Of a DNA stretch of 44,830 bases, positions 1,632-41,743 are shown piece by piece; position 1 is the stretch's first letter, and every line of letters starts with the position of its first letter. The position numbers were made by a program, and so were the translations under genes. The notes beneath the pieces were generated by a model that did no database searches, had not been told where the DNA came from, and worked only from the letters and a program-made list of their open reading frames with translations. The stretch lies in the IMG/VR virus record IMGVR_UViG_3300042392_000945, positions 1-44,830 of that record; one strand, written 5' to 3'. Source of the stretch: a virus.

Positions 1632-1698
1632 AAGGATTCTATCTTAGGAATCCATCTTCATTCATACAGTGCCCGCGTGATGGCCTTGTTATCACGAC
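1632..1698 (+). promoter_or_regulatory. Conserved dispersed element, copy 1 (67 bp)
   Basis: These 67 bases are identical but for one base to the reverse complement of 38823-38889. The 30-bp core, GTGCCCGCGTGATGGCC followed by TTGTTATCACGAC, recurs at 35262-35291 and 41158-41187 on the minus strand. The core holds a CGTGAT...ATCACG inverted repeat with a 9-base loop. The 5' part holds a GGATTC...GAATCC inverted repeat. The copy ends 16 bases before the ATG at 1715. All four copies point toward the gene they precede, which suggests a promoter, operator or RNA leader. Confidence 0.6.
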
Positions 1699-1714: not shown

Positions 1715-3235
1715 ATGGCAACAACTATCGCACGTATTCAAAGCACACCTGGTGTTGCATCTTCTAGACTATACCTGGGATCATTTTCCTCCACGGGAAC
1801 AGCTAATCCCGCTGGGTACTTGAATACGGGTGAACTATGGGGTAACTATGGTTTCCAAATAACAGAGGCATTAGCTGGTTGGTTCATCTATGGGATCTTT
1901 AACTCCTCCCTTCAGCAATTGGCTGGCGGGATGATATACCTAGAGGACGACACTCGGGTTTACTTCGGTTTCGACCCGCCTTCATCTGTTTGGAGCACAT
2001 GGAACAACCTCGATGTTGCTACAAGCACACGGGCATCGCCCGCTGACGTGACAACACAGTTGACTGCCCAAGGTCTAACCTCAACACGCGCGGGTTTCCT
2101 GGATCGTTTGGATGCCACTATCAGTTCTCGCGAGTCTGATGCTAGTGCGTCTACACGGGCAACCACAAATCAAACTGAGCATGATGCAACACAGGCAACG
2201 CTTGCGGGGCTCAATAATTTGAGTATCGCAAACGTTCAGACAGCCATGACAAACCAGGGCTACACCTCTGGGCGAGGTCCCCTTTTAGACCGTCTGGACG
2301 TAGTCTTATCAACTAGACAGTCAGAATCTGATGCAGCAACACGACACACGGCCAACCTTGCACAGCACACTGCAACTCAAGGTACACTGTCCACAATTCT
2401 GACCAACATTGCATCAGTCCCTGCCGCAGTTTGGAACTACTTGACGTCCGCAGCAACAACTGTTGGGTCTCTGGGTAAACGCATTGCGGACAACCTCGAT
2501 GCGGCCATCACAACTCGCGAAGCTGAGTCCGCTGCTGCAACTCGTGCAACAACGAATCAGACTGAGCATGATGCAACACAAACGACCCTAGCCAGCATCT
2601 CTGTCACCTTGGACGCTGGTGATCTTACCGATATTGGTAACGCCGTTTGGAATGCAACAACAGCCGCTGCTGTTACGGCAGGAACTTTTGGTATGCTCAC
2701 TAAGACAAACTTGGATGCAACAATATCTTCGCGTTTGTCTGAAGCAAACTCAGCATCTCGTCAAACAGTAAACATTGCCGAACATGATGCAACACAAGCA
2801 ACGCTTGCCGGTCTGAACAACCTGAGCATTGCTAACGTCCAGACAGCCATGACAAACCAGGGGTACACCGGTGTGCGCGGCGCATACTTGGATCGCCTCG
2901 ACGTCGCAGTATCAACTCGGCAGTCAGAGTCTGATGCATTGGCACGCTACAACGACATCAACACGGACGTTGCCGCAGTAGCTACTAGCGTATCGGGTCT
3001 GAATGTTCAAAGCGCTACAACGGCTGCTCTGATAGCCCTTGGGTACACCAGTACTCGTGCGGGCAAGATCGACAACTTAGATAACTTGACTGCTGCACCT
3101 CCAACTGTGGCTGCGATCGCAGACGCCGTTTTAGATGAGGCTCTTTCAGGACACATGACAGCGGGTACTGCTGGGGAGGCAATCAAGCTCGCCCGCGACC
3201 AAGCACTAATTGCTGCCACAAACACTCAACCTTAA
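1715..3235 (+). CDS. Repeat-containing tail appendage / fibre-type protein
   Basis: A 506-residue acidic, Ala/Thr/Ser-rich protein. Residues about 1-100 look globular. From about residue 100 it is built of repeats with the pattern GYTS-R-G-LLDRLD--(V/I)STRxSES-A--TR, followed by a Gln/Thr-rich linker. The unit AGLNNLSIANVQTAMTNQGY occurs twice almost unchanged (residues about 166-187 and 367-388). Such GYT-x-R-x-LDNLD repeats are common in phage appendage proteins and are likely trimeric coiled-coil or beta stalks. The gene lies directly behind conserved element copy 1. Receptor binding or baseplate attachment is inferred. Confidence 0.7.
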   Translation: MATTIARIQSTPGVASSRLYLGSFSSTGTANPAGYLNTGELWGNYGFQITEALAGWFIYGIFNSSLQQLAGGMIYLEDDTRVYFGFDPPSSVWSTWNNLDVATSTRASPADVTTQLTAQGLTSTRAGFLDRLDATISSRESDASASTRATTNQTEHDATQATLAGLNNLSIANVQTAMTNQGYTSGRGPLLDRLDVVLSTRQSESDAATRHTANLAQHTATQGTLSTILTNIASVPAAVWNYLTSAATTVGSLGKRIADNLDAAITTREAESAAATRATTNQTEHDATQTTLASISVTLDAGDLTDIGNAVWNATTAAAVTAGTFGMLTKTNLDATISSRLSEANSASRQTVNIAEHDATQATLAGLNNLSIANVQTAMTNQGYTGVRGAYLDRLDVAVSTRQSESDALARYNDINTDVAAVATSVSGLNVQSATTAALIALGYTSTRAGKIDNLDNLTAAPPTVAAIADAVLDEALSGHMTAGTAGEAIKLARDQALIAATNTQP

Positions 3236-8349: not shown

Positions 8350-9168
8350 ATGGTTAAGTTCGCATTATTGTTGTCCTCGTATGCAATTCCAGCAGACGTT
8401 TGCTTCGACAATGAGGGTGGTGGGGGTGCTGGTAATGGTACTGGTGAGGGTGGCGATACCGCTGCTGCCGCTGCTGCCACTGCCGCTGCTGCCGCTGCTG
8501 CCGCTGCTGCAAGCAAGACGAAGGCCTTCTCACAAGAGGATATCAACACCCTTTTGGCCGAGGATCGACGCAAACATGCTGCTAAGCTCAAAGCCCTTGA
8601 GGAAACTCTACAGGGCACCTTGAAGACTTCGCAGATGACGCAACAACAACGTGATGAGCTGGAAGTTTCTATGGAGGATATGCGTAAGCAATTCCTTTCC
8701 AAGGAACAGCAGGCTCTCATGGAGAAGCAGACCATTGAGTCAAACTACAAGAAGGAGCTTGAGGCTGAGAAGGCTGCAAGGAAAGCATTTGAGACCAAGT
8801 TTGTTGACTCAACAATCAGTCGGTCCCTCGCGGATGCTGCCATTGACAACGGTGCATTCAGTGCGGATCAAATCGTGGCACTGCTTAGGCCCCATACTAA
8901 GCTCATCAATGATGTCCCAGTAGTGGACTTCAATGATAAGCATGCGGAGACAGGTGAACCCATCATTACTCAGATGTCACCTGCCGCAGCCGTGAAGCGT
9001 ATGAAAGAACTCGCTGAAGTTCATGGCAACTTGTTCAAGAGTAACGTGGTATCGGGGGTGGGCGGTTCTAGTGGAACCGCTAACCCAGGGAAAATTGATA
9101 TGCGTAAGCTGACCCCCCAGCAATACGCCAAGCTTCGCAGGGAAAATCCATCCGCACTTGGGTTCTAG
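8350..9168 (+). CDS. Capsid scaffold-like protein
   Basis: A 272-residue protein directly upstream of the coat gene. Residues 1-23 (YAIPADVCFDN core) resemble the coat protein N-terminus. Residues about 24-36 are Gly-rich, 37-55 are an almost pure Ala tract encoded by GCTGCTGCC repeats, and about 60-150 form a long charged coiled coil with many Lys, Glu and Gln. The end (KIDMRKLTPQQYAKLRRENPSALGF region) is a short basic helix. A helical, highly charged protein with a basic C-terminal helix just before the coat gene is the usual picture of a phage scaffolding protein. Gly/Ala tract length may vary by slippage. Confidence 0.75.
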   Translation: MVKFALLLSSYAIPADVCFDNEGGGGAGNGTGEGGDTAAAAAATAAAAAAAAAASKTKAFSQEDINTLLAEDRRKHAAKLKALEETLQGTLKTSQMTQQQRDELEVSMEDMRKQFLSKEQQALMEKQTIESNYKKELEAEKAARKAFETKFVDSTISRSLADAAIDNGAFSADQIVALLRPHTKLINDVPVVDFNDKHAETGEPIITQMSPAAAVKRMKELAEVHGNLFKSNVVSGVGGSSGTANPGKIDMRKLTPQQYAKLRRENPSALGF

Positions 9169-9240: not shown

Positions 9241-10668
9241 ATGGAAAAGTTCCAACTCATCGCTCTGTATGCCGTTCCTGCTCTCGTTTGCTTCGACAAT
9301 AGCAACGATGCTTACATCCCAGAGCAGTGGGCAAATGAAAGCTTGATGATTCTCGAAGAGTCGATGGTTATGGCCAATTTGGTTCACCGTGACTTTGAGT
9401 CCCAAGTTCAGAACTTCGGTGATGTGGTCAACACTCGCAGGCCAAGCAAGTTCGCTAGCCAGCGTCGAGGTGACTTTGATGCGGTTTTGGCACAAGATGC
9501 CAACAGCACCAACGTTGCGGTGGTTTTGGACCAACACCACTATAACACATTCGTCATCCGCGACGGTGAAGGCAGCAAGTCCTTTGCAGACTTGGCAAAC
9601 ATCTACCTTCGACCAGCCGTTCAAGCTGTAGGACGTGGTGTTGACCGCTCTGTAGCTGGACAAGCACACCGCTTCTTTGGCACCCCTGCCGGTCGAGTTG
9701 GCGCACTCGGAGCAAGCACCTCGTCCAACGTTCGAAGCAACATTGTTGAGTGTCGCGAGAAACTCAACCTGTTGAATGTTCCTCAGGATGAGTTCCGAAA
9801 TATGGTTGTTGCCCCTGGTGTTGAAAGCGACATGCTCAACACCGACCTGTTCGTTCGAGCCAACGAATCGGGAAGCGCTGACGCTCTGCGACGAGCAAGC
9901 ATCGGGAATCTGTTCGGCTTCAACATCTACGCAGCAAACAACGTCCCCGCAGTGTCCTTGGCACAGTGTGACGTGGTCACCGGAACCATCACCAATGCGA
10001 TTGCCGCTGGTGCTGCTCCCGCGTCCCAGGCTTGCGTTATCTCTGCCTACGATGTCCAAGTTGGTGAGTACTTCACCATCGCTGGTAATGCTCAACCACA
10101 GATCGCTACTGCTAAGACGTTCTCTACGAACACGACTGCCATCACACCAAACGAATCGAACAAGTTCGCAACTTCTGCTGGAGCAGTTGTGACTGTGTAC
10201 AGGCACTTCGCTGCCAAGGGCGCTCAAGTTGCTGGCCAAAGCAAGGCTATCCTTGTCGACGGCTACACGCTACCTCCAACCGCTGGCCGTATGGTCTCCA
10301 TCGGAACCGGCGCTGCAAAGCGTGACTACACGATCATCGAAGCATACGCAGGCCCAGCTTCCGACTGGTTCATCCTTTTGGACCGACCTCTTGAGGCTAA
10401 CTTGGCTGATAACGGTTTGATTTTCCCAGCACCCGCTGGTGAATACAACATGGCCTTCCACAAGAATGCCTTGGCGTTGATCACTCGACCTCTGGCTCGC
10501 CCAAACACGAGCACTGGTGTATTGAGCACTGTCGCAAGCAATGGCGTCTCCTCGATGCGAATCTGCATGCAATACGACAGCTCGTTGATGGGCACACGCT
10601 GCACCGTTGACATGCTCTCTGGTGTTGCGTTGCTTGATCCTAACATGGGTGTCTTGTTCCTCGGCTAA
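9241..10668 (+). CDS. Major capsid protein, P22 coat-like family
   Basis: A 475-residue protein. Residues 28-70 read WANESLMILEESMVMANLVHRD, then FGDVVNTRRPSKF, the N-arm and E-loop pattern of the P22 coat protein family (P22_CoatProtein). This family forms the icosahedral shell with a scaffold that leaves or is degraded. About residues 240-370 (ITNAIAAGAAPASQ through TPNESNKFATSAG and beyond) look like an inserted beta domain, as in P22 coat. The C-terminus (CMQYDSSLMGTRCTVDMLSG) matches the P-domain strand. Family identification is strong; the shared N-terminal peptide with the upstream scaffold-like gene is unusual. Confidence 0.85.
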   Translation: MEKFQLIALYAVPALVCFDNSNDAYIPEQWANESLMILEESMVMANLVHRDFESQVQNFGDVVNTRRPSKFASQRRGDFDAVLAQDANSTNVAVVLDQHHYNTFVIRDGEGSKSFADLANIYLRPAVQAVGRGVDRSVAGQAHRFFGTPAGRVGALGASTSSNVRSNIVECREKLNLLNVPQDEFRNMVVAPGVESDMLNTDLFVRANESGSADALRRASIGNLFGFNIYAANNVPAVSLAQCDVVTGTITNAIAAGAAPASQACVISAYDVQVGEYFTIAGNAQPQIATAKTFSTNTTAITPNESNKFATSAGAVVTVYRHFAAKGAQVAGQSKAILVDGYTLPPTAGRMVSIGTGAAKRDYTIIEAYAGPASDWFILLDRPLEANLADNGLIFPAPAGEYNMAFHKNALALITRPLARPNTSTGVLSTVASNGVSSMRICMQYDSSLMGTRCTVDMLSGVALLDPNMGVLFLG

Positions 10669-17903: not shown

Positions 17904-17925
17904 GAAAACTGTAAAGTTTTCTTTG
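17901..17925 (+). terminator. Terminator hairpin starting at the stop codon
   Basis: TAAGAAAACT-GTAA-AGTTTTCTTT: arms of 8-9 bases, a 4-base loop and T residues. The stop TAA is its first three bases, and the -35 box of the next promoter starts inside its tail at 17923. Confidence 0.65.
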
Positions 17926-17951
17926 ACTTCTAGTTTTCTTAATGCATACTT
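17923..17951 (+). promoter_or_regulatory. Sigma70-like promoter, conserved family copy A
   Basis: TTGACT at 17923-17928, a 17-base spacer containing CTAGTTTTCTT, and ATACTT at 17946-17951. The ATG at 17958 is only 6 bases beyond the -10 box, so transcription should begin at or within a base or two of the start codon (leaderless). Near-identical promoters lie on the minus strand at 27842-27870 and 28752-28780. Confidence 0.75.
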
Positions 17952-17957
17952 GAGTTT

Positions 17958-18790
17958 ATGACCAGACCCGCAAACAATCAGACAACCTATGTTTACCGTT
18001 TCACCAACTTGGTGAACGGTAAGGCGTATGTTGGTATCTCAACTCAGCCAAAGAAGCGTAAGCGAGACCACGAGAGTGGTAACGGGTCTTTACTGCTGTG
18101 GCGGGCCATACAAAAGTATGGTTTAGTAAACTTTGAATACTCCCTGGTGTCAAAGCACAAAACATATAGTGCTGCTCTCTCTCTCGTGAGATTAAAGAGA
18201 TATCCAAGCACAACTCAGTTAAACCTAACGGCTACAACTTGACCCTTGGTGGTGAGGGTTCTGTAGGGTATGTGGATAGCCCCCAAACACGAGAGAAGAA
18301 GCGACGGGTTTGGTTGGGTCGCAAACATACCCCAGAGACATTGGTCAAGATGAGTGCTGCGCAAACAGGCCGCACGTTCTCTAAAGACACAATAAAGAAG
18401 ATGAGTGCGTCGGCCTTGGGTAAACAGAGACGCTTAGGTGCGGTCCTGTCTCAGGAGACTAAGGACAAGATTGGTAATGCAAACCGTGGTCGCATACACA
18501 CCCAGGCCTCATGCAAGAAGAAGCGTAAAGCAATGCTAGGCCGGGAGTTTACGCAGGGCCACAAGGACAAGATAGGCGCAAGCCACCTAAACCGATCACC
18601 TGACACTTACGCCCGAGGTGCAAGTTCCGGCATGGCTAAGCCCGTCCTAGTTGATGGTTGGGTTTATGCTTGCATCAAAGACGCTGCTGAGGATCATGGC
18701 GTTCTTAACGATACAATACGAGAACGCATTCTACGAAATCAAAAAACCGACCCCGACAACTGGGGTTACCTTAAGAAAACTACCCCTTAG
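17958..18790 (+). pseudogene. GIY-YIG homing endonuclease, frameshifted
   Basis: Two frames together make one GIY-YIG homing endonuclease. The first (from ATG 17958) holds the nuclease core: YVYRFTNLVNGKAYVGIS (residues 11-28). The second frame continues with KPNGYNLTLGGEGS, NUMOD3-like repeats (HTPETLVKMSAAQTGRTFS, DTIKKMSASALGK) and an IENR1/NUMOD1-like end (GWVYACIKDAAEDHGV). The frames meet at a CT run, 18175-18185. Removing one CT restores AALSREIKEISKHNSVKPNG, the expected family sequence. The first frame alone stops at 18242, so as read the enzyme is broken. It stands in its own terminator-promoter cassette between two tail genes. Confidence 0.85.
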
Positions 18791-25783: not shown

Positions 25784-25821
25784 CAATTTATATGTTTTGG
25801 TGTGTCTATTGCCCGATCCCA

Positions 25822-25867
25822 AAACGAAAAAAGCCCCGTGATTAAAACCACGGGGCTTTTTTCGTTT
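25822..25867. terminator. Bidirectional terminator between convergent blocks
   Basis: Perfect 19-base arms (25822-25840 and 25849-25867) around the loop ATTAAAAC. The GC core GCCCCGTG/CACGGGGC is flanked by A6 on one side and T6 on the other, so it terminates both the rightward late transcript and the leftward one. It ends at the stop of the leftward gene at 25866. Confidence 0.95.
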
Positions 25868-26093
25868 AGTCATCAAATACCCACCCCCTTGAGCTGGCAA
25901 CTAGCTTTGACGTCCCAAGAGTGACCTTGGCACCAATCTTTTGCTCGGTGGTTCGCCCACCCTCAAGTGTCGCAACCAACATCTTCTTGCCATCCTTCTT
26001 TTGCAGCAGTGCCTTGGTCCCTAGCACAGCAGCGACCAACCAGTCGTCGACGAAGTAGTCCTGCTTTTCTTTGCAGTAAGTTAGTTTGACCAT
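25866..26093 (-). CDS. Small hypothetical protein
   Basis: A 75-residue basic protein starting MVKLTYCKEKQDYF. The ATG at 26093 overlaps the TAA of the upstream gene (TAATG), which fixes the start better than longer in-frame alternatives. It has a beta-type plan with many Lys (ALLQKKDGKKMLVATLEGG; TEQKIGAKVTLGTSKLV). It is the last gene of the leftward block, ending in the bidirectional terminator. No family recognised. Confidence 0.6.
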   Translation of the reverse strand: MVKLTYCKEKQDYFVDDWLVAAVLGTKALLQKKDGKKMLVATLEGGRTTEQKIGAKVTLGTSKLVASSRGWVFDD

Positions 26094-26382: not shown

Positions 26383-26409
26383 AAAGCAGGAGTCCGGCTA
26401 CACCCAATA
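26383..26409. repeat. Dispersed 26-27 bp repeat, copy 1
   Basis: AAAGCAGGAGTCCGGCTACA followed by CCCAAT occurs here and, with one C-to-T change, at 33524-33550 in the same orientation. Here it fills the gap between two small leftward genes (26360-26416). Confidence 0.7.
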
Positions 26410-27804: not shown

Positions 27805-27841
27805 GGTGGTTGTCTCCGGGTGGCTGGCTTGGTGATACTAC

Positions 27842-27870
27842 AAGTATGCATCAAGAAAACTAGTTGTCAA
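27842..27870 (-). promoter_or_regulatory. Sigma70-like promoter, conserved family copy C
   Basis: Read leftward: TTGACA (27870-27865), a 17-base spacer containing CTAGTTTTCTT, and ATACTT (27847-27842). It follows a terminator hairpin (27871-27891) without a gap and faces the gene at 27804. Confidence 0.8.
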
Positions 27871-27891
27871 AAGAAATCTTCTAGATTTCTT
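27871..27891 (-). terminator. Hairpin terminator next to promoter C
   Basis: Perfect arms AAGAAATC/GATTTCTT around TAGAA; read leftward it begins in the stop codon of the 28267 gene and is followed by TT and the -35 box. A shorter version of the same hairpin lies at 1609-1631. Confidence 0.6.
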
Positions 27892-28267
27892 ACTCATCCA
27901 ACTCGTCATACTTCTTCAGCCGGTAACAGTAGCAACCGAAATCATAGGGTGCCCGATGGACACGCCGCCATGGTTCATTGCCACTTCGGGTGGTGAGCTG
28001 CATCTCATAGTCACCCAGCGTTTCACCAAAGGCCCACTCAATATAAGTGTCAATGATATACTTTGCCCGGAGTGCGTTCATATGATCATCATGTGCTATC
28101 GACGTGCACAGCCCGGAATCTCGTCGAATCTTCTCACTGAGGTCAGCACGTCGACTTGGGAGCATTGGCATACCAGTGACACCTTCACCGTCCTCTAGGC
28201 CCCGTTGATACGCTGCCCCATGAGTCTTCTCGGTATCGTCTATAGCTGGAAATAGTTTCTCGCTCAT
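27890..28267 (-). CDS. Hypothetical phage early protein
   Basis: A 125-residue protein. It contains HGAAYQRGLEDGEGVTGMPM, a long helix (DDHMNALRAKYIIDTYIEW) and a tail with GCYCYRLKKYDELDE. The start overlaps the upstream gene (28264) by ATGA-type coupling. Its stop is the first part of a terminator hairpin. No motif for enzymatic activity was found. Confidence 0.55.
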   Translation of the reverse strand: MSEKLFPAIDDTEKTHGAAYQRGLEDGEGVTGMPMLPSRRADLSEKIRRDSGLCTSIAHDDHMNALRAKYIIDTYIEWAFGETLGDYEMQLTTRSGNEPWRRVHRAPYDFGCYCYRLKKYDELDE

Positions 28268-28578: not shown

Positions 28579-28745
28579 ATCTTTCCATCCAGGTCAGGGT
28601 CGTAAATCATATATTCATCCAGTAGTACGTCGAAGTCATCCGGGGCTTTAGGCTTGGGCGGTTTTGGTTTGGGTGGCCCTATCATGCGGCTTGTTGTGAA
28701 GCCAATTATCAGAGCGATAAGTGCAAGTAGTGCAGTGAGTTTCAT
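28575..28745 (-). CDS. Small membrane protein, probably leaderless mRNA
   Basis: A 56-residue protein: MKLTALLALIALIIGFTTSR membrane anchor, then a Pro/Lys-rich hinge (PPKPKPPKPKAP) and an acidic end (DDFDVLLDEY...DPDLDG). The ATG at 28745 lies 6 bases past the -10 box of promoter copy B, and the stop overlaps the next ATG (ATGA). The anchor lacks a clear signal peptidase site, so it is probably an inner membrane protein facing the cytoplasm or periplasm. Function unknown. Confidence 0.65.
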   Translation of the reverse strand: MKLTALLALIALIIGFTTSRMIGPPKPKPPKPKAPDDFDVLLDEYMIYDPDLDGKI

Positions 28746-28751
28746 ATTTAC

Positions 28752-28780
28752 TAGTATGTGCCAAGAAAACTAGAAGTCAA
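28752..28780 (-). promoter_or_regulatory. Sigma70-like promoter, conserved family copy B
   Basis: Read leftward: TTGACT (28780-28775), 17-base spacer containing CTAGTTTTCTT, ATACTA (28757-28752), then GTAAAT and the ATG at 28745. The start codon is where transcription is expected to begin, so the mRNA should be leaderless. Confidence 0.8.
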
Positions 28781-28785
28781 ACAAA

Positions 28786-28817
28786 ACTAAAAGAAAAGCC
28801 TCAGATTTCTCTGAGGC
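28786..28817 (-). terminator. Rho-independent terminator, leftward
   Basis: Read leftward: GCCTCAGA-GAAA-TCTGAGGC followed by TTTTCTTTT. It lies 7 bases after the stop of the gene at 28824 and immediately before promoter copy B. Confidence 0.85.
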
Positions 28818-28823
28818 CAAATA

Positions 28824-33523: not shown

Positions 33524-33550
33524 AAAAGCAGGAGTCCGGCTACACCTAAT
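33524..33550. repeat. Dispersed 26-27 bp repeat, copy 2
   Basis: Second copy of the repeat at 26383-26409, same orientation, one base different. It lies in a 177-base gap with no gene (33468-33644). Confidence 0.7.
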
Positions 33551-33974: not shown

Positions 33975-35063
33975 CTACGCATCTCCGCGAACCCTCAAGT
34001 AGGCTGCTTCCTTCGGAACGCCTGCATCTGACAGTTCGCGATACTGAAACGTGATTGTGTCACCCAGGTTGAAGTGCTTAGCCTTGAAGCCTATTGACAC
34101 GTCCTTACCCGGTTGGAGCCCATGGGGCGTACCGATGAATTGTCGCTCGTCATCGGTCATACCACTCAGTTCGAGTCGCTTACCATTGAAGTCAAGGACT
34201 AAGGCACCTATCATGCCCTCGTACTTGCCAGAACCTGCGGTGTACCCAACAAGGACTCCTTCTGCATCCTCACAACTTTTGAACTTCAGCAAATTCGCGG
34301 TTCTTTTGATCTCGTACACAGCCGCTGGATTTCGTATGATCAAACCTTCACCCCCGAGGCCCAGGACTTTGGCCATGCGGCCTTCTACCGCTTCCCATGC
34401 CTGGGCCTCGTCTTGTGGAAGGAACGTCTGGAGGTGTACCTCGCAGTACTCGCAGGCATCCTTAATCCAGTCGTGTAAAAACTCAATGGACTCAGCAAAG
34501 GGTGTCTCAGGTGTCGCCCAACCAATTGCTCTGTGTGGTCGTCTACAGATGATGTGCAGCATGTCCTGCAAGGCCTCGTCTTTGATCTCGCAGTAGTAGT
34601 TGGCATTCTTGATAAGCCCCGGCACGGTCATCACCTCTAACGAAGGCGTTCCATAGACCATGTACTTGACTTGCCTCCAGCGATCATCGCCGCAGTCGCC
34701 CGCGACAATGGACCGGCACGTTTGAAACTCCCCACGACCAGCCCAGAGTTCACCATCGAGCATTACGCATGGGAGGGCGTCGAGGAACCAGTCTGGTGCC
34801 ATGATGGGATTGCCGTACCGACTCCATAGGCCTGTCGAGACGGGCTTGATCTTGTCCTTTGGCTTTAGCGTCTTTGGATGCAACACGCTGGCCCATGGTA
34901 CGTCCACTGTGGGCAGCCCACGAGTTACCCCACCGTCCCAGAAGCATCGGGTGCCATCTAACTTCTCGCTGACACACCAACCTGCGATCTTAGGTCGCTT
35001 GGCGTTGTCGATTGGCTTGGCAAGCGTGACAAGTTCTCGTCGTTTAGTCTTTGTTGTTGTCAT
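33975..35063 (-). CDS. ATP-dependent DNA ligase
   Basis: A 362-residue protein. Motif I is SEKLDGTRCFW with nucleotidyl lysine K34. Later blocks are VMLDGELWAG (motif III), GGEGLIIRNP (motif IV) and LLKFKSCEDAEGVLVGYTAG (motif V and the start of the OB domain). The length is that of compact phage/T7-type ligases. It would seal nicks during phage DNA synthesis. The start overlaps the sigma-like gene by 20 bases, and conserved element copy 4 lies about 200 bases upstream inside that gene. Confidence 0.9.
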   Translation of the reverse strand: MTTTKTKRRELVTLAKPIDNAKRPKIAGWCVSEKLDGTRCFWDGGVTRGLPTVDVPWASVLHPKTLKPKDKIKPVSTGLWSRYGNPIMAPDWFLDALPCVMLDGELWAGRGEFQTCRSIVAGDCGDDRWRQVKYMVYGTPSLEVMTVPGLIKNANYYCEIKDEALQDMLHIICRRPHRAIGWATPETPFAESIEFLHDWIKDACEYCEVHLQTFLPQDEAQAWEAVEGRMAKVLGLGGEGLIIRNPAAVYEIKRTANLLKFKSCEDAEGVLVGYTAGSGKYEGMIGALVLDFNGKRLELSGMTDDERQFIGTPHGLQPGKDVSIGFKAKHFNLGDTITFQYRELSDAGVPKEAAYLRVRGDA

Positions 35064-35565
35064 GGTATTTCTTTCGTATATTTCTAATTTGCCGTCGAAT
35101 GTTCATAACTGGTGTGCCCAGCATCTCTGCTACAGCTTCTTGTGTTGGTTTGCGGCCCTCTCCTAACAAGTAGTAGAATGAACGTATGATCCGTTCTTGC
35201 TCTCCTGTTGATTCCATCTCAACATCTCTTAGCACCTCCTCCTCAGCCTGCATTGTCGTAGGTCGTGATAGCAGGGCCATCACGCCAGCACTGTGAAGGG
35301 TAGGGGGTTTATGTTTAGACTTGTATGGTGTTAACCCATAGTTGTTGAGAGCCCTACTTTCGCGTCTTGCGGTACGAGGTATACATTTAATGAGCACGGC
35401 CAGATCAACCTCACCCTTCTCCTTGATTAGAGTGAAAACCTTTAACCAACATGCTTGTGAAATATCGCCTTGATCCTGCTGAGAAAAGGTGCTAGCGACA
35501 TTTGCAATGACCTCAGATAGATGAGTTATGGCGTCGTCGAAGCTTGTGATCTTTATGTTTTCCAT
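35044..35565 (-). CDS. Sigma-like transcription factor candidate
   Basis: A 173-residue protein; ATG at 35565 is preferred over a TTG at 35577. The N-terminal half (DAITHLSEVIANVASTF, DISQACWLKVFTLI, LAVLIKCIPRTARRESRAL) resembles sigma region 2. The C-terminal part (STGEQERIIRSFYYLLGEGR, PTQEAVAEMLGTPVMNIRRQ) has the HTH plan of sigma region 4. Between them lies a 90-120 residue linker partly encoded by conserved element copy 4 (AGVMALLSR). It could direct host RNA polymerase to phage promoters. The similarity is remote and must be tested. Confidence 0.5.
   Translation of the reverse strand: MENIKITSFDDAITHLSEVIANVASTFSQQDQGDISQACWLKVFTLIKEKGEVDLAVLIKCIPRTARRESRALNNYGLTPYKSKHKPPTLHSAGVMALLSRPTTMQAEEEVLRDVEMESTGEQERIIRSFYYLLGEGRKPTQEAVAEMLGTPVMNIRRQIRNIRKKYHDNNKD
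35262..35291 (-). promoter_or_regulatory. Conserved dispersed element, copy 4 (inside sigma-like gene)
   Basis: Read leftward, 26 of 30 bases match the element core, and the CGTGAT...ATCACG arms are intact. It lies in the coding region of the sigma-like gene and encodes AGVMALLSR. The ligase start is about 199 bases downstream in the same sense. Confidence 0.5.
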
Positions 35566-36512: not shown

Positions 36513-38783
36513 TTAACTAAGAGCCACCAATTCCTCGGGTGCGTAGGTGAAGTTGTAAGTTTCCCCACGGCCACCCTTCTTACCCTCAGCCCAGTTGGCA
36601 GCATGGGTCGACCACTTCATCCCAAGCAGGGGTACCAGTGCGTCCCGCTGCTCAGCGATCGACTTGCCCACAACCTGTGTAACCCTGTCAACTACTGCCT
36701 CATCGCACACACATTGGATTTCGTCATGCACCTGCATTGGGGCGACCGCGAAAGGATGCACGCCAGAGGGTTGAATATCCCAGATCGCCCGCTGGACTGA
36801 CTTACATATCAGAGCACCCGTGGATTGAATCTCGTGATTACCTGCTGCTCGAATGTTTGCGTTCTGGATACTGAATGCCGCCCCATAAAGAGCACTGCGA
36901 ACCGCACCCGCTGCCGTCTGGATCTTCTGACGTCGTACCACCTTTATCTTCTTCTGGTCCCACTCCTTCGGAGGAGAAATCGCGAGGTCATACAGCACTT
37001 TCATGACTGTGATCTCCAACTCAAAGGATCGTTTGAAGCCTTGCATGTTCTCTGCGAAGGGTTGAGGGTCGACCCAGGTGAACCCGTGGCCGTTTTCAAT
37101 GAGAGCCGAGTGCGTATCCACAATCCGCTCAACGGACTTCTTCAGCCCAGGTGCTCGGTTTCTCCACTCAATGATCGCACGCTCGGCAACATCCAAGGGT
37201 ATACCCTGGTTGACGTGCAACGTGAAAGCCTCACCAAAGTACAGGACCGCGAACAGCCCCGACTTTGCATCGGTATAGTAGTCTGGATCCTGACCTTCCG
37301 AGGCTAGGATCTGATCATAGGTCAGGTGTGGGTACATCAGTTCACCAAACACCCCCGCAGGTTTGAGTGCACCCACGACCAACTCACGGAATGAGGGGTC
37401 TTTGTAAACCGCATCTGCGATGGCCATTTCGAACTTACTGAAGTCACCCCCAGACAGTGTCATACCTTCCCAAGCGAGTGGGAAGCATCGACGAACGTTC
37501 TTGGTTGACTTGATGCCCTGGACATTCAAATTGTTTGTGCCCGACATACGACTGGATACTGCACCGATGATGTTGAAGCCCGCGTGTAATCGCCGGGCAA
37601 GCAACAGCTTGTCGTACAATTCAACTTCCTTCTGCATCTTACGGACGTTCAGGATTGTCTTGGCACGGTGTGCTGCCTCAGGGTTGTCCGTCCACGTTGA
37701 GATCTCATCCAAGACTTGCTTGCGGGTTGTCTCAGCAACGAAAATCTGTTCGGTGACGTCCATCACTTCCATCAAATACTGACGTACTTGGGCTGTTGAG
37801 TCGACGTTGATCGGGCTTGCTTGGACAACCTTCAGTGCCTCTTCCCGGAGGCCTTTGAGGCCTTCAATGTCGAGCGCGAACCCGTGCCATCGCACGGTCG
37901 CAACCATGCACGCGAGTTCAGAGTCGTCGTCACCGGGTTCTGGTGAACCAAAGTACTGGTACAGTCTGCGAGTGGCGTATACGTCATATTTGGCGTATGC
38001 AATTGCGTTGGTATTGGTGTGCCAGTGATCAATGTGTGCCTGGATAACATCGGGCCATGCGAGTGCATCTTCACCATAGAGTTCGTATACTGCACGGGCA
38101 CTAGGTGCATACTCAACTTCCTTACCATAGACCTCGCAGGCAATGTCTCCAAAGTGGAATGGCGGCTTCTCGCCCACGAAGTACTCCATCAGGTACTTCA
38201 AACCTGCGGACGGGTTGAACTTGAGAACAACATCTTTGAAGTAAGGTTCTTCGTCAATGTCATAGACTCTCCATCGGATATTCTTATCTGCTTGGCGATC
38301 CCAATAGATTTCTGGCAACGTAAGCCGAGCATCAAGTTCGTCGCAAAGAGGGTAGGCTAACTCCATTGGCACCCTACGAATACGGACGTCGCCTCGGTTC
38401 ATGAGGGTCTGTGTCCGCTGGTCCTTACGCGACCAGAGCATCAGGTCACAGCATCTCTTTGGCTTCAAGCACAACCCATCCATAGCAGCCTCTTCGCAGG
38501 ATGCGACGAGATCGATGTTAGGCGGGTCATTAGCGAGGTTTGGATACCGCTTGACGTATTCGTTGAATACGTTGTAGCACTTAGTGACATGAAACCAGTC
38601 AAACACGCAGTTGAAGCCAACGAAGTCATGTTCACAGAACATCTCGATCAGCCGAAGAGTCTCATTGACAGGCTTGTACCAGATCTCATAGTAGACTTCT
38701 GGTGCGTCATCAATGGCGTACTGAAACGTCACTGGGAATCCCGAGAACATGCATGTTTCCGAGTCCATGTATAGCTTTGACAT
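36513..38783 (-). CDS. DNA polymerase, family A (T7-like) with 3'-5' exonuclease
   Basis: A 756-residue protein. Exonuclease motifs: YMDSETC (D7, E9), FVGFNCVFDW (N58, D62) and YAKYDVYAT near residue 270. Polymerase motifs: A at about residue 447 (SGGDFSKFEMAIAD), B at about 507 (AKSGLFAVLYFGEAFTLHV) and C at about 683 (APMQVHDEIQCVC). This is the plan of stand-alone phage family A polymerases without a 5' nuclease domain. It copies the phage genome with proofreading. Conserved element copy 2 lies 39 bases before the start. Confidence 0.9.
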   Translation of the reverse strand: MSKLYMDSETCMFSGFPVTFQYAIDDAPEVYYEIWYKPVNETLRLIEMFCEHDFVGFNCVFDWFHVTKCYNVFNEYVKRYPNLANDPPNIDLVASCEEAAMDGLCLKPKRCCDLMLWSRKDQRTQTLMNRGDVRIRRVPMELAYPLCDELDARLTLPEIYWDRQADKNIRWRVYDIDEEPYFKDVVLKFNPSAGLKYLMEYFVGEKPPFHFGDIACEVYGKEVEYAPSARAVYELYGEDALAWPDVIQAHIDHWHTNTNAIAYAKYDVYATRRLYQYFGSPEPGDDDSELACMVATVRWHGFALDIEGLKGLREEALKVVQASPINVDSTAQVRQYLMEVMDVTEQIFVAETTRKQVLDEISTWTDNPEAAHRAKTILNVRKMQKEVELYDKLLLARRLHAGFNIIGAVSSRMSGTNNLNVQGIKSTKNVRRCFPLAWEGMTLSGGDFSKFEMAIADAVYKDPSFRELVVGALKPAGVFGELMYPHLTYDQILASEGQDPDYYTDAKSGLFAVLYFGEAFTLHVNQGIPLDVAERAIIEWRNRAPGLKKSVERIVDTHSALIENGHGFTWVDPQPFAENMQGFKRSFELEITVMKVLYDLAISPPKEWDQKKIKVVRRQKIQTAAGAVRSALYGAAFSIQNANIRAAGNHEIQSTGALICKSVQRAIWDIQPSGVHPFAVAPMQVHDEIQCVCDEAVVDRVTQVVGKSIAEQRDALVPLLGMKWSTHAANWAEGKKGGRGETYNFTYAPEELVALS

Positions 38784-38822: not shown

Positions 38823-38889
38823 GTCGTGATAACAAGGCCATCACGCGGGCACTGTATGAATGAAGATGGATTCCCAAGATAGAATCCTT
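38823..38889 (-). promoter_or_regulatory. Conserved dispersed element, copy 2 (67 bp)
   Basis: Reverse complement of 1632-1698 with one mismatch in 67. It lies 39 bases before the DNA polymerase ATG and beside the tRNA-like region upstream. It includes the GGATTC...GAATCC and CGTGAT...ATCACG inverted repeats. Confidence 0.7.
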
Positions 38890-38894
38890 ACAAA

Positions 38895-38972
38895 TCCCCG
38901 TGTCGGGACTCGAACCCAACCTGCCACCAGTTTTAATCCTGGCCGCTCGCCGCTGGCGTACCGGAGGGAGCC
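38895..38972 (-). tRNA. Degenerate or unusual tRNA
   Basis: Read leftward there is a good T arm (TTGGG-TTCGAGT-CCCGA), a 3-bp D-like stem (GCC...GGC) with AG-GG in the loop, and an anticodon-like stem CCAG...CTGG around GATTAAAA. The acceptor pairs at only 5 of 7 positions (CCCTCCG with CACGGGG). The 8-base loop makes the anticodon uncertain. It is probably a decayed tRNA gene, or a tRNA-like structure. Confidence 0.35.
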
Positions 38973-39860: not shown

Positions 39861-41126
39861 CTACACCTCGATCACATAGCGTGGAGTTCGCAACTTCTCG
39901 GCTTGGTCTCGGATCTGTACGTTCATCTTCCATGTGACCCCGTGCTTTGGATTCACGCCGTGGATGAGTTGGGACGGTTCGCGATAACCACTAAACGAGT
40001 TGTACGAGTACGCATTCGTTCCCACCCAGGCACCATTAGCCAGCAGTTCACCATTCATGTCCTGCAACGATGCAGCGACGTGATGGTGACCCATGACTGA
40101 GTACCGGATCGGGGCAGTGGTGTTCTGCATCTGCCCCAGCTTCATCAAGTTCCCATGTCTACGCAACATCCCGTAAAATGGTATACCCTGGTGGCCTTTG
40201 ACGTCATCACCGTGGCTCACATTGAAAACGACTCCGTTGATCTCGACGTTGATCGAGAACGCATTGGGAATCGTGAATGCAACATTAGCCATGGATGCAC
40301 AGTGCATCTCGGTGACCTTGGCAATCAGGTAATCCCAATTGTCATGAGCACCATGGTGGTTCTTCTTCTCCGACCGCCGCCCGTGATTCCCAGGCACGTA
40401 AACGACGTTCACGCTCTTGAAGAACGGGGCGAGGTCTCGGACCATGAGGGCGTGCAAGCGACCAATCGCGAAGCAGTTCTTGAACTGGTTCCTGAATTGG
40501 GATCGCTCAACCGCACCGTGGATTTCACCAGATGTGTGGTCGCCATAGGCAAGGATGGTCAGGTCCGTGAAGTTGTAGTTGGATAATGCGGTCTGGGTGA
40601 AGTCAATCATCGTGTCAACAAACTTCTCAGCGCGACGACAACTAATGTTGAAGTCATATTCCTCCAACCCTCCGCACTCGTCGGGTACAACGATCTCGTC
40701 GTGGTGACCATCGCTCAGGTGCATCACGAGGGATTCCTTGATCTTGCCCTCACGCGAGGGTGGCGTCACAACCGGAGGTAATGAGGTCAACGGTTTGATC
40801 TCCCGTATCTCATCGACGATGGCCCGGAACAAACCATGTTGCTTTCCAGCAGCCTTTGCCGATCGCTTCTGCACGTTTAACTCGGACTTTAGGTTGATGA
40901 CCTCGGCCTCCAACTCGATAACACGGCTATCCGTTGGGTCGAACTCGCGGGGCACGGGTTTAGCCTTAACTGGCGTCTCCACCCCCACACCATGGCTTCG
41001 CCCCGTCTTTATGTTTGATACGGTTGAGGATGTGGTATTGAACTTGCGAGCAACTTCGCCCACGCCCTCACCTGCTTGAAGGGCCGCTCGAATTTCTTGA
41101 ACTGTTGTATCACTTAGTCTGGTCAT
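39861..41126 (-). CDS. HTH-metallophosphoesterase (Mre11/SbcD-like calcineurin fold)
   Basis: A 421-residue protein; ATG at 41126 is chosen over upstream codons that read through conserved element copy 3. Residues 1-40 are an HTH (TTVQEIRAALQAGEGVGEVA, then RKFNTTSSTVSNIKTG). After a coiled linker come the metal-binding motifs: VMHLSDGHHDE, LAYGDHTSGEI, YVPGNHGRRSE, FNVSHGDDVKGH and YSVMGHHHVAA. These are the five phosphoesterase motifs, with GDH in place of GDxxD. It is likely a DNA nuclease or phosphatase guided by its HTH. Confidence 0.75.
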   Translation of the reverse strand: MTRLSDTTVQEIRAALQAGEGVGEVARKFNTTSSTVSNIKTGRSHGVGVETPVKAKPVPREFDPTDSRVIELEAEVINLKSELNVQKRSAKAAGKQHGLFRAIVDEIREIKPLTSLPPVVTPPSREGKIKESLVMHLSDGHHDEIVVPDECGGLEEYDFNISCRRAEKFVDTMIDFTQTALSNYNFTDLTILAYGDHTSGEIHGAVERSQFRNQFKNCFAIGRLHALMVRDLAPFFKSVNVVYVPGNHGRRSEKKNHHGAHDNWDYLIAKVTEMHCASMANVAFTIPNAFSINVEINGVVFNVSHGDDVKGHQGIPFYGMLRRHGNLMKLGQMQNTTAPIRYSVMGHHHVAASLQDMNGELLANGAWVGTNAYSYNSFSGYREPSQLIHGVNPKHGVTWKMNVQIRDQAEKLRTPRYVIEV

Positions 41127-41157: not shown

Positions 41158-41187
41158 GTCGTGATAACAGGGCCATCACGCGGGCAC
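41158..41187 (-). promoter_or_regulatory. Conserved dispersed element, copy 3 (30-bp core)
   Basis: Read leftward, 29 of 30 bases match the core of copies 1 and 2. It is 31 bases before the phosphoesterase ATG. The 5' GGATTC extension of copies 1 and 2 is absent. Confidence 0.6.
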
Positions 41188-41218
41188 CGTAACATTGGCT
41201 GCGTTGGTGAGCACAGAG

Positions 41219-41743
41219 CTATAACGCGGGGCCCCACCAATTATCTTCGTCTTCGTCTTCGTCTTCGTCTTCGTCTTCGTCTTCGTCTTCGTCTTCGTCT
41301 TCCCAGTCTTCATCATCCCAGTCTTCATCATCCCAGTCTTCATCATCCCAGTCTTCATCATCCCAGTCTTCATCATCCCAGTCGTCATCATCCCAGTCGT
41401 CATCGTCGAGATCGTCATCGTCGAGATCGTCATCGTCGAGATCGTCATCATCTTCGAAGTCGTCGAAGTCGTCGAAGCCATCGAAGTCATCATCGTCGAA
41501 AGTGTCATCGAGGGTATCGAGGTCGTCGAGGGCATCGAGGTCGAACGGAGGTGCATCATTCACTGGTGATACGTCATTCATGTTAGGTTTCCTATGTGTA
41601 GTGTTTGTAGGTGGTAAGCAGGTGTCGTATTGGTGTGCGTAATCTTCACCCCGATCTATATCCTGCCACACTTCTACTAGGCAATCTGTCGGGGAACGTG
41701 TACTTTGCATCTGACTGTGTAACCAGTTTTCGAATACGCTCAT
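41219..41743 (-). CDS. Highly acidic repeat protein (DDEDW repeats)
   Basis: A 174-residue protein, with a possible internal start at ATG 41581 (AGGAAA upstream) giving 120 residues. From about residue 66 it is almost only Asp and Glu, with Leu then Trp every fifth residue: several DDDDL, two DDDDW, five DDEDW units, then ED repeats and the end NWWGPAL. Acidic tails with aromatic residues occur on phage ssDNA-binding proteins, and acidic DNA mimics inhibit host nucleases. Here there is no visible OB fold. The DNA is a 15-bp and 6-bp tandem array (41243-41450). Confidence 0.6.
   Translation of the reverse strand: MSVFENWLHSQMQSTRSPTDCLVEVWQDIDRGEDYAHQYDTCLPPTNTTHRKPNMNDVSPVNDAPPFDLDALDDLDTLDDTFDDDDFDGFDDFDDFEDDDDLDDDDLDDDDLDDDDWDDDDWDDEDWDDEDWDDEDWDDEDWDDEDWEDEDEDEDEDEDEDEDEDEDNWWGPAL
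41243..41450. repeat. Coding microsatellite: TCTTCG hexamers and 15-bp units
   Basis: About ten TCTTCG units (41243-41302) pass into repeated CCCAGTCTTCATCAT units (to about 41400) and then GTCATCGTCGAGATC units (to about 41450). All keep the frame of the acidic protein, so unit gain or loss changes only its length. Confidence 0.9.

Follow-up and report, generated by a model that had tools for sequence, protein, structure and literature searches.

What does a short element do when it stands, always in the same sense, before four different genes of one phage? The question is raised by IMG/VR record IMGVR_UViG_3300042392_000945, whose whole 44,830 bp were analysed here and are called the window. 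Its + strand carries siphovirus-like genes (a head protein, phrog_283, a tape measure and a scaffold), its - strand carries a replication block (helicase, phosphoesterase, PolA, ligase, nucleotidase and methylase), and a bidirectional terminator-like palindrome at 25815-25874 separates the two. Two further contigs are the same phage, and one of them, 16.5 kb long, reaches 3.9 kb past window position 1. A search of the GenBank phage collection with the first 25 kb of the window found no close relative. Among the head genes, the scaffold-like and major head proteins share an N-terminal YAxPAxVCFDN (8350-8430 and 9241-9310; 82% DNA identity, 34 bp).

A preliminary description of this DNA had reported two inverted copies agreeing at 66 of 67 bases, with a 30-bp core recurring at two more sites. 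The long pair holds: copy 1 (1632-1698, + strand) and copy 2 (38823-38889, - strand) are identical at 67 of 68 bases when compared over 1631-1698 and 38823-38890 (self-BLAST E 4e-27). Both shorter copies were also found, copy 3 as a core only (41158-41191, - strand; 2 differences per 34 bases) and copy 4 with the most diverged core of the four (35262-35295, - strand; 4 differences per 33 bases over 35262-35294), but the unit shared by all is 34 bp, NACRGTGCYSGCGTGATGGCCYTGYTATCACGAC, and not 30. This core lies at 1665-1698 in copy 1 and 38823-38856 in copy 2, and these two alone share 34 extra bp upstream of it, with a GGATTC...GAATCC stem. Within the 34 aligned columns the variable ones are 1, 4, 9, 10, 22 and 25. 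The right edge, past ...CACGAC, is sharp: the bases 3' of it are different in all four copies, and no -10-like block common to all copies was found there. The repeat is genuine and well past chance. A 28-bp core allowed at most 3 mismatches matches three times in the window and not once in 100 shuffles, and an unfiltered covariance model scan of the window recovers the four copies and leaves the rest within noise. Neither the window nor the 16.5-kb contig yielded another copy in a model search, and a second metagenome contig (L001/L006) carries copy 1 at 100% identity.

All four copies are oriented in the sense of the genes downstream, and the genes are those that had been named. Copy 1 ends 18 nt 5' of the ATG at 1715 of a repetitive 506-aa protein (1715-3235, +), which is fibre-like by its internal repeats and gave no match in family searches. 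Copy 2 lies 41 nt before ATG 38783 of a family-A DNA polymerase (36513-38783, -; PF00476, 9.6e-22), and copy 3 lies 33 nt before ATG 41126 of an HTH plus SbcD-like phosphoesterase/exonuclease (39861-41126, -; phrog_284, 2.8e-39; PF13936 weak). These three are intergenic. Copy 4 falls within the coding frame of a sigma-like gene, in the linker preceding the region-4 helices, and ends 199 nt 5' of ATG 35063 of an ATP-dependent DNA ligase (33975-35063, -; phrog_114, 8.6e-38). Two other features were seen close by. Beside copy 2, ARAGORN calls a tRNA-Phe with anticodon AAA at 38894-38969 (-), possibly a tRNA remnant, which was set aside because Rfam, searched up to E 1, does not match it and the anticodon is odd. 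At 41219-41743 (-) is an extremely acidic repeat protein whose D/E/W repeats come from TCTTCG and 15-bp tandem repeats; one relative, G005, has a comparable Asp/Glu-rich ORF near the same gene.

The element itself seems to be private to this phage. The exact unit or core occurs in IMG/VR in contigs of the same phage only, and BLAST against phages and plasmids and a search of Rfam gave no match to it. GTDB gave a single match (L015), antisense to a conserved FGFDYLRDNMA stretch that we take to be a SecA motif; it was dismissed, as the chance expectation of the pattern is about 0.5 and the match is antisense in a conserved coding stretch. For a regulatory element the preliminary description expected to see it upstream of the corresponding genes of related phages. 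The sequence is missing there (0 of 82 related loci, scanned with the R1 model), but other sequences occupy its place. Such literal absence is compatible with a promoter, since the phage-sigma promoters of phiEco32 and 7-11 behave in this way (PMC8948821).

Those other sequences were studied in relatives found by a phosphoesterase search, 6 and later 80 related loci. The 80 loci keep the gene order helicase-phosphoesterase-PolA-VRR-g35553-sigma-(dNT)-ligase, and self-comparison shows that many of these relatives have a private repeat, with a single consensus in each phage. A systematic test covered 48 genomes or loci: the 300-nt stretch 5' of each conserved gene was searched against its own genome, and a repeat was counted at 38 bits or more. 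Upstream of the ligase a repeat was found in 16 of 40 (the window and near-duplicates included), and the best copy was on the same strand in 16 of 16. The controls gave 1 of 45 for VRR, 3 of 45 for g35553 and 10 of 288 for random windows; the helicase count, 12 of 47, takes in matches within a methylase gene. With near-duplicates and the window dropped, the ligase count is 12 of 35 against 10 of 288 random windows (Fisher p 1.2e-7, an optimistic value, as the ligase was picked after examples had been seen). Random windows are mostly coding, which makes VRR and g35553 the fairer comparison, and the contrast with these two genes stands along with the same-strand result, since neither hangs on the choice of ligase alone. 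Among the 12 ligase-positive relatives a further copy lies within 1 kb 5' of PolA in 7 and of the helicase in 3, and the window, like them, has copies 5' of both ligase and PolA. In about two thirds of the relatives no private repeat was detected 5' of the ligase at the sensitivity used.

The private repeats number 2 to 7 copies per genome, and most copies stop between a few and about 55 nt 5' of a start codon. In seven relatives (G005, G008, G010, G013, G017, G028 and G035) they consist of two conserved blocks whose spacer keeps its length but varies in sequence, for example GCGCGCACAA-N8-CGTTTTACGACTCTCTATGTGG in G005, AAAACCAG...CGTCTCTCTTAGTGG in G008 and ACTCCAGA-N15-CGATCTCC in G013. Being bipartite and non-folding, these elements have the signature of a two-box promoter and not of an RNA structure. 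From the alignment of the copies and by analogy with the relatives' elements, the window's element would have an upstream box ACRGTGC (1666-1672, +, in copy 1) and a downstream box TATCACGAC (1690-1698, +), where the conserved unit stops exactly in every copy. Unlike in the relatives, the bases between these putative boxes are conserved too, and 4 of the 6 variable columns fall in the spacer. In eight relatives (G008, G013, G015, G017, G018, G020, G028 and L083) a conserved 52-62 aa ORF (for example MHVVEFIPADWLERAA...) lies between element and ligase; the window lacks it and has the region-4 end of the sigma-like gene at that place.

The preliminary description had left the choice between a promoter, an operator and an RNA leader. 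The comparison with relatives favours the promoter and makes the other two less likely, because the relatives' repeats stand at the same genes, are bipartite with variable spacers, lack a hairpin and are mostly near start codons. We think that the repeat is probably a private middle/late promoter of this phage, most likely read via its own sigma-like protein on the host polymerase, and the link that had been proposed between the + block and the - replication block fits such a promoter. We infer that the element initiates transcription and that the sigma-like protein would redirect host RNA polymerase to it. Transcripts would start just 3' of the conserved right edge, ...CACGAC, so that the leader would be short at the fibre, DNA polymerase and phosphoesterase genes and longer at the ligase.

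The host sigma-70 consensus TTGACA-N17-TATAAT has no match at the elements, and the same scan does pick up sites elsewhere in the window. Three host-type promoter cassettes, each a hairpin followed by TTGACW-N16-CATACT, are found at 17915-17961 (+), 27839-27892 (-) and 28742-28818 (-). In two of them the -10 is about 7 nt 5' of the ATG, which suggests leaderless mRNAs, and the cassette hairpin sequence recurs at 1609-1631, immediately 5' of copy 1. The relative G005 has four host-type promoters (TTGACTT..TATGAT in L027-L030, at 133, 2765, 4663 and 17845 on the minus strand, soon followed by an ATG), and they coexist with six private elements. A separate intergenic 26-bp repeat, ATTRGGTGTAGCCGGACTCCTGCTTT in the - sense, occurs in the window at 26383-26408 and 33525-33550; near the latter are two T-arm-like motifs, GGTTCGATTCC and GGGTTCAATTCCC, without an Rfam match.

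The proposed reader is the 173-aa product of the sigma-like gene at 35044-35565 (-). Its match to Pfam Sigma70_r4 (PF04545) has E 0.0025, below the cut-off, and the gene is diverged, but it is syntenic with clear sigma genes of relatives: nearly all relatives that span the interval from g35553 to ligase/dNT have a sigma-like ORF in it. Of 33 relatives, 19 gave a match to sigma-70 region 2, in most cases a weak one. A profile of the relatives' sigma genes matches sigma factors in the PDB (1l0o, 4e-19), the formal top row of that search being CAP REPEAT 8vd6, a repeat protein matched over five short stretches. A single-sequence AF2 model of the window's protein has confident helices in the region-4 part only and is poor elsewhere. 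Foldseek ranks the ECF sigmas SigH, CnrH, AlgU and SigE high with this model, with E-values that are not significant, and a model from the family alignment likewise puts mostly sigma factors first, not significantly. Going by these sub-threshold matches and by synteny, the protein is a putative sigma that resembles ECF sigmas. In a MAFFT alignment with relatives the copy-4 peptide SAGVMALL appeared as sigma region 2.2, which was taken to be an artefact, since DISQACWLKVF..., farther upstream, is a better candidate for region 2.

Motif similarity correlates with the identity of the sigmas (Mantel rho 0.50, p 0.001). The correlation is lower for the phosphoesterase/exonuclease (rho 0.30) and equally high for the non-sigma neighbour g35553 (rho 0.49), so it does not point to the sigma in particular. 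Coevolution of element and sigma is thus suggested and is inseparable from general divergence. Mean identity in 11 genomes is 38% for the sigma and 78% for the exonuclease.

An operator is an unlikely alternative, in which the palindrome would be bound by a phage DNA-binding protein such as the HTH-phosphoesterase, alone or overlapping a promoter. The CGTGAT...ATCACG inverted repeat that had been described is indeed present in all four copies, one of which precedes a gene with an N-terminal HTH, as an operator would have it. The half sites are 9 bp apart, however, other private elements that were tested have no such structure, and the HTH-phosphoesterase is conserved (50-58% identical to the window's) in relatives whose elements share no sequence with this one. 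Similar inverted-repeat patterns are also common in the window (23 found at 3 mismatches, 17.7 expected).

We also doubt that the element acts as a transcribed hairpin, CGUGAUGGC-CYU-GYUAUCACG, in the 5' leader of the mRNAs, through stability, processing or translational control. The sense orientation and the nearby start codons would suit a leader, and so would the stem, which has 9 pairs in every copy and at its single variable position still pairs (G-U to G-C). The fold barely beats shuffles, though (z -1.25 to -2.5 as DNA and -1.1 to -3.0 as RNA), and copy 4 is within a coding frame. Moreover, the relatives' elements (7 tested, one copy each) fold no better than shuffles, and many of them stop a few nt 5' of a start codon. 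The hairpin of the window's element is probably incidental or a secondary operator.

A small mobile or palindromic repeat that has spread without regulatory function would account for the sharp edges, the near identity of copies 1 and 2 across 68 bp and the intragenic copy 4, but it is very unlikely, as co-orientation and siting before ligase and PolA match the relatives' private repeats and exact copies were not found elsewhere. Least of all do we expect a promoter for a single-subunit phage RNA polymerase of T7 type: ACGACTCTCTATGTGG in one relative's element is close to the T7 sequence ACGACTCACTATAGGG, and TATATAGG lies directly 3' of copy 1, but PF00940 is absent from the 33 relatives and from L006, the contig that extends the window (records that are possibly fragments; the T7 control gave 1e-109) and the window's copies have no conserved start region. 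Large ORFs beside the replication block of three relatives were at first thought to be RNA polymerases and turned out to be primases. The relative G006 has, at L024:15008-18727 (-), a primase with a DUF5906 helicase domain and an intein with a LAGLIDADG endonuclease.

To return to a promoter read by the phage's sigma: taken singly, the element would be another case of a phage-sigma promoter type, and the family-wide pattern is more interesting. Different private repeats stand at the same genes in the relatives, so the promoter sequence seems to change fast while its genomic place is stable. We tentatively suggest, as a real possibility, that one widespread uncultured phage family keeps a private promoter code per lineage at ligase, PolA, helicase/exonuclease and tail genes, replaced along with a fast-diverging sigma. 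Sequence alone would then offer a way to read how a large group of uncultured phages organises its transcription, with small genes under host-type promoters (in part apparently leaderless) and with replication and tail genes under private ones. About ten consensus elements at equivalent positions, with a matching sigma gene in each genome, would amount to a natural experiment in sigma-promoter change, and the family may be a source of candidate orthogonal sigma-promoter pairs.

Among known systems, the nearest analogue that is not a promoter is the SAS/ESAS elements. A SAS lies 3-8 nt 5' of the start codon and is complementary to the 3' end of 16S rRNA; the window's element lies 18-41 nt 5' of the three intergenic starts, outside that spacing. 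In mycobacteriophage cluster K the 13-bp SAS has a proposed role in translation initiation and is conserved across the cluster (PMC3203893). Like the window's element, SAS/ESAS are repeated, mostly co-oriented motifs near start codons, some with inverted repeats; unlike them, the window's element is private and farther from start codons. T7-like promoters are also repeated and co-oriented, and the element of one relative is similar to the T7 initiation region, but the elements here are bipartite with a variable spacer.

The closest precedents are promoters read by a phage sigma, for which a transcription start 6-9 nt downstream and dependence on that sigma are among the defining features. The middle/late promoters of phiEco32, tAATGTAtA, are read by sigma gp36 on the host core polymerase, and the late promoters of Salmonella phage 7-11, GTAAtg-(16)-aCTA in eight copies, by SaPh711_gp47; the two sigmas are 15% identical, and their promoters are dissimilar and stand at similar genome positions (PMC8948821). 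Such promoters were predicted by the same reasoning from low-copy repeats (PMC4331800), but the motif predicted there for 7-11, TGATGT, differs from the one mapped later (PMC8948821), so repeat-based calls need experiment. The window resembles phiEco32 in having few copies 5' of middle/late genes, a putative phage sigma and, presumably, the use of host core polymerase; phiEco32 differs in its single-element consensus and in its sigma, which has no region 4, while helices resembling region 4 are present in the window's protein. The window resembles 7-11 in its sigma-like gene and in equivalent positions with another consensus (the clearly bipartite motif is that of the relatives), and differs from it in a longer conserved unit, a private sequence, an uncultured host and a promoter activity that is predicted here. 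Unlike in the 7-11 precedent, the pattern of kept position and changed sequence spans many lineages.
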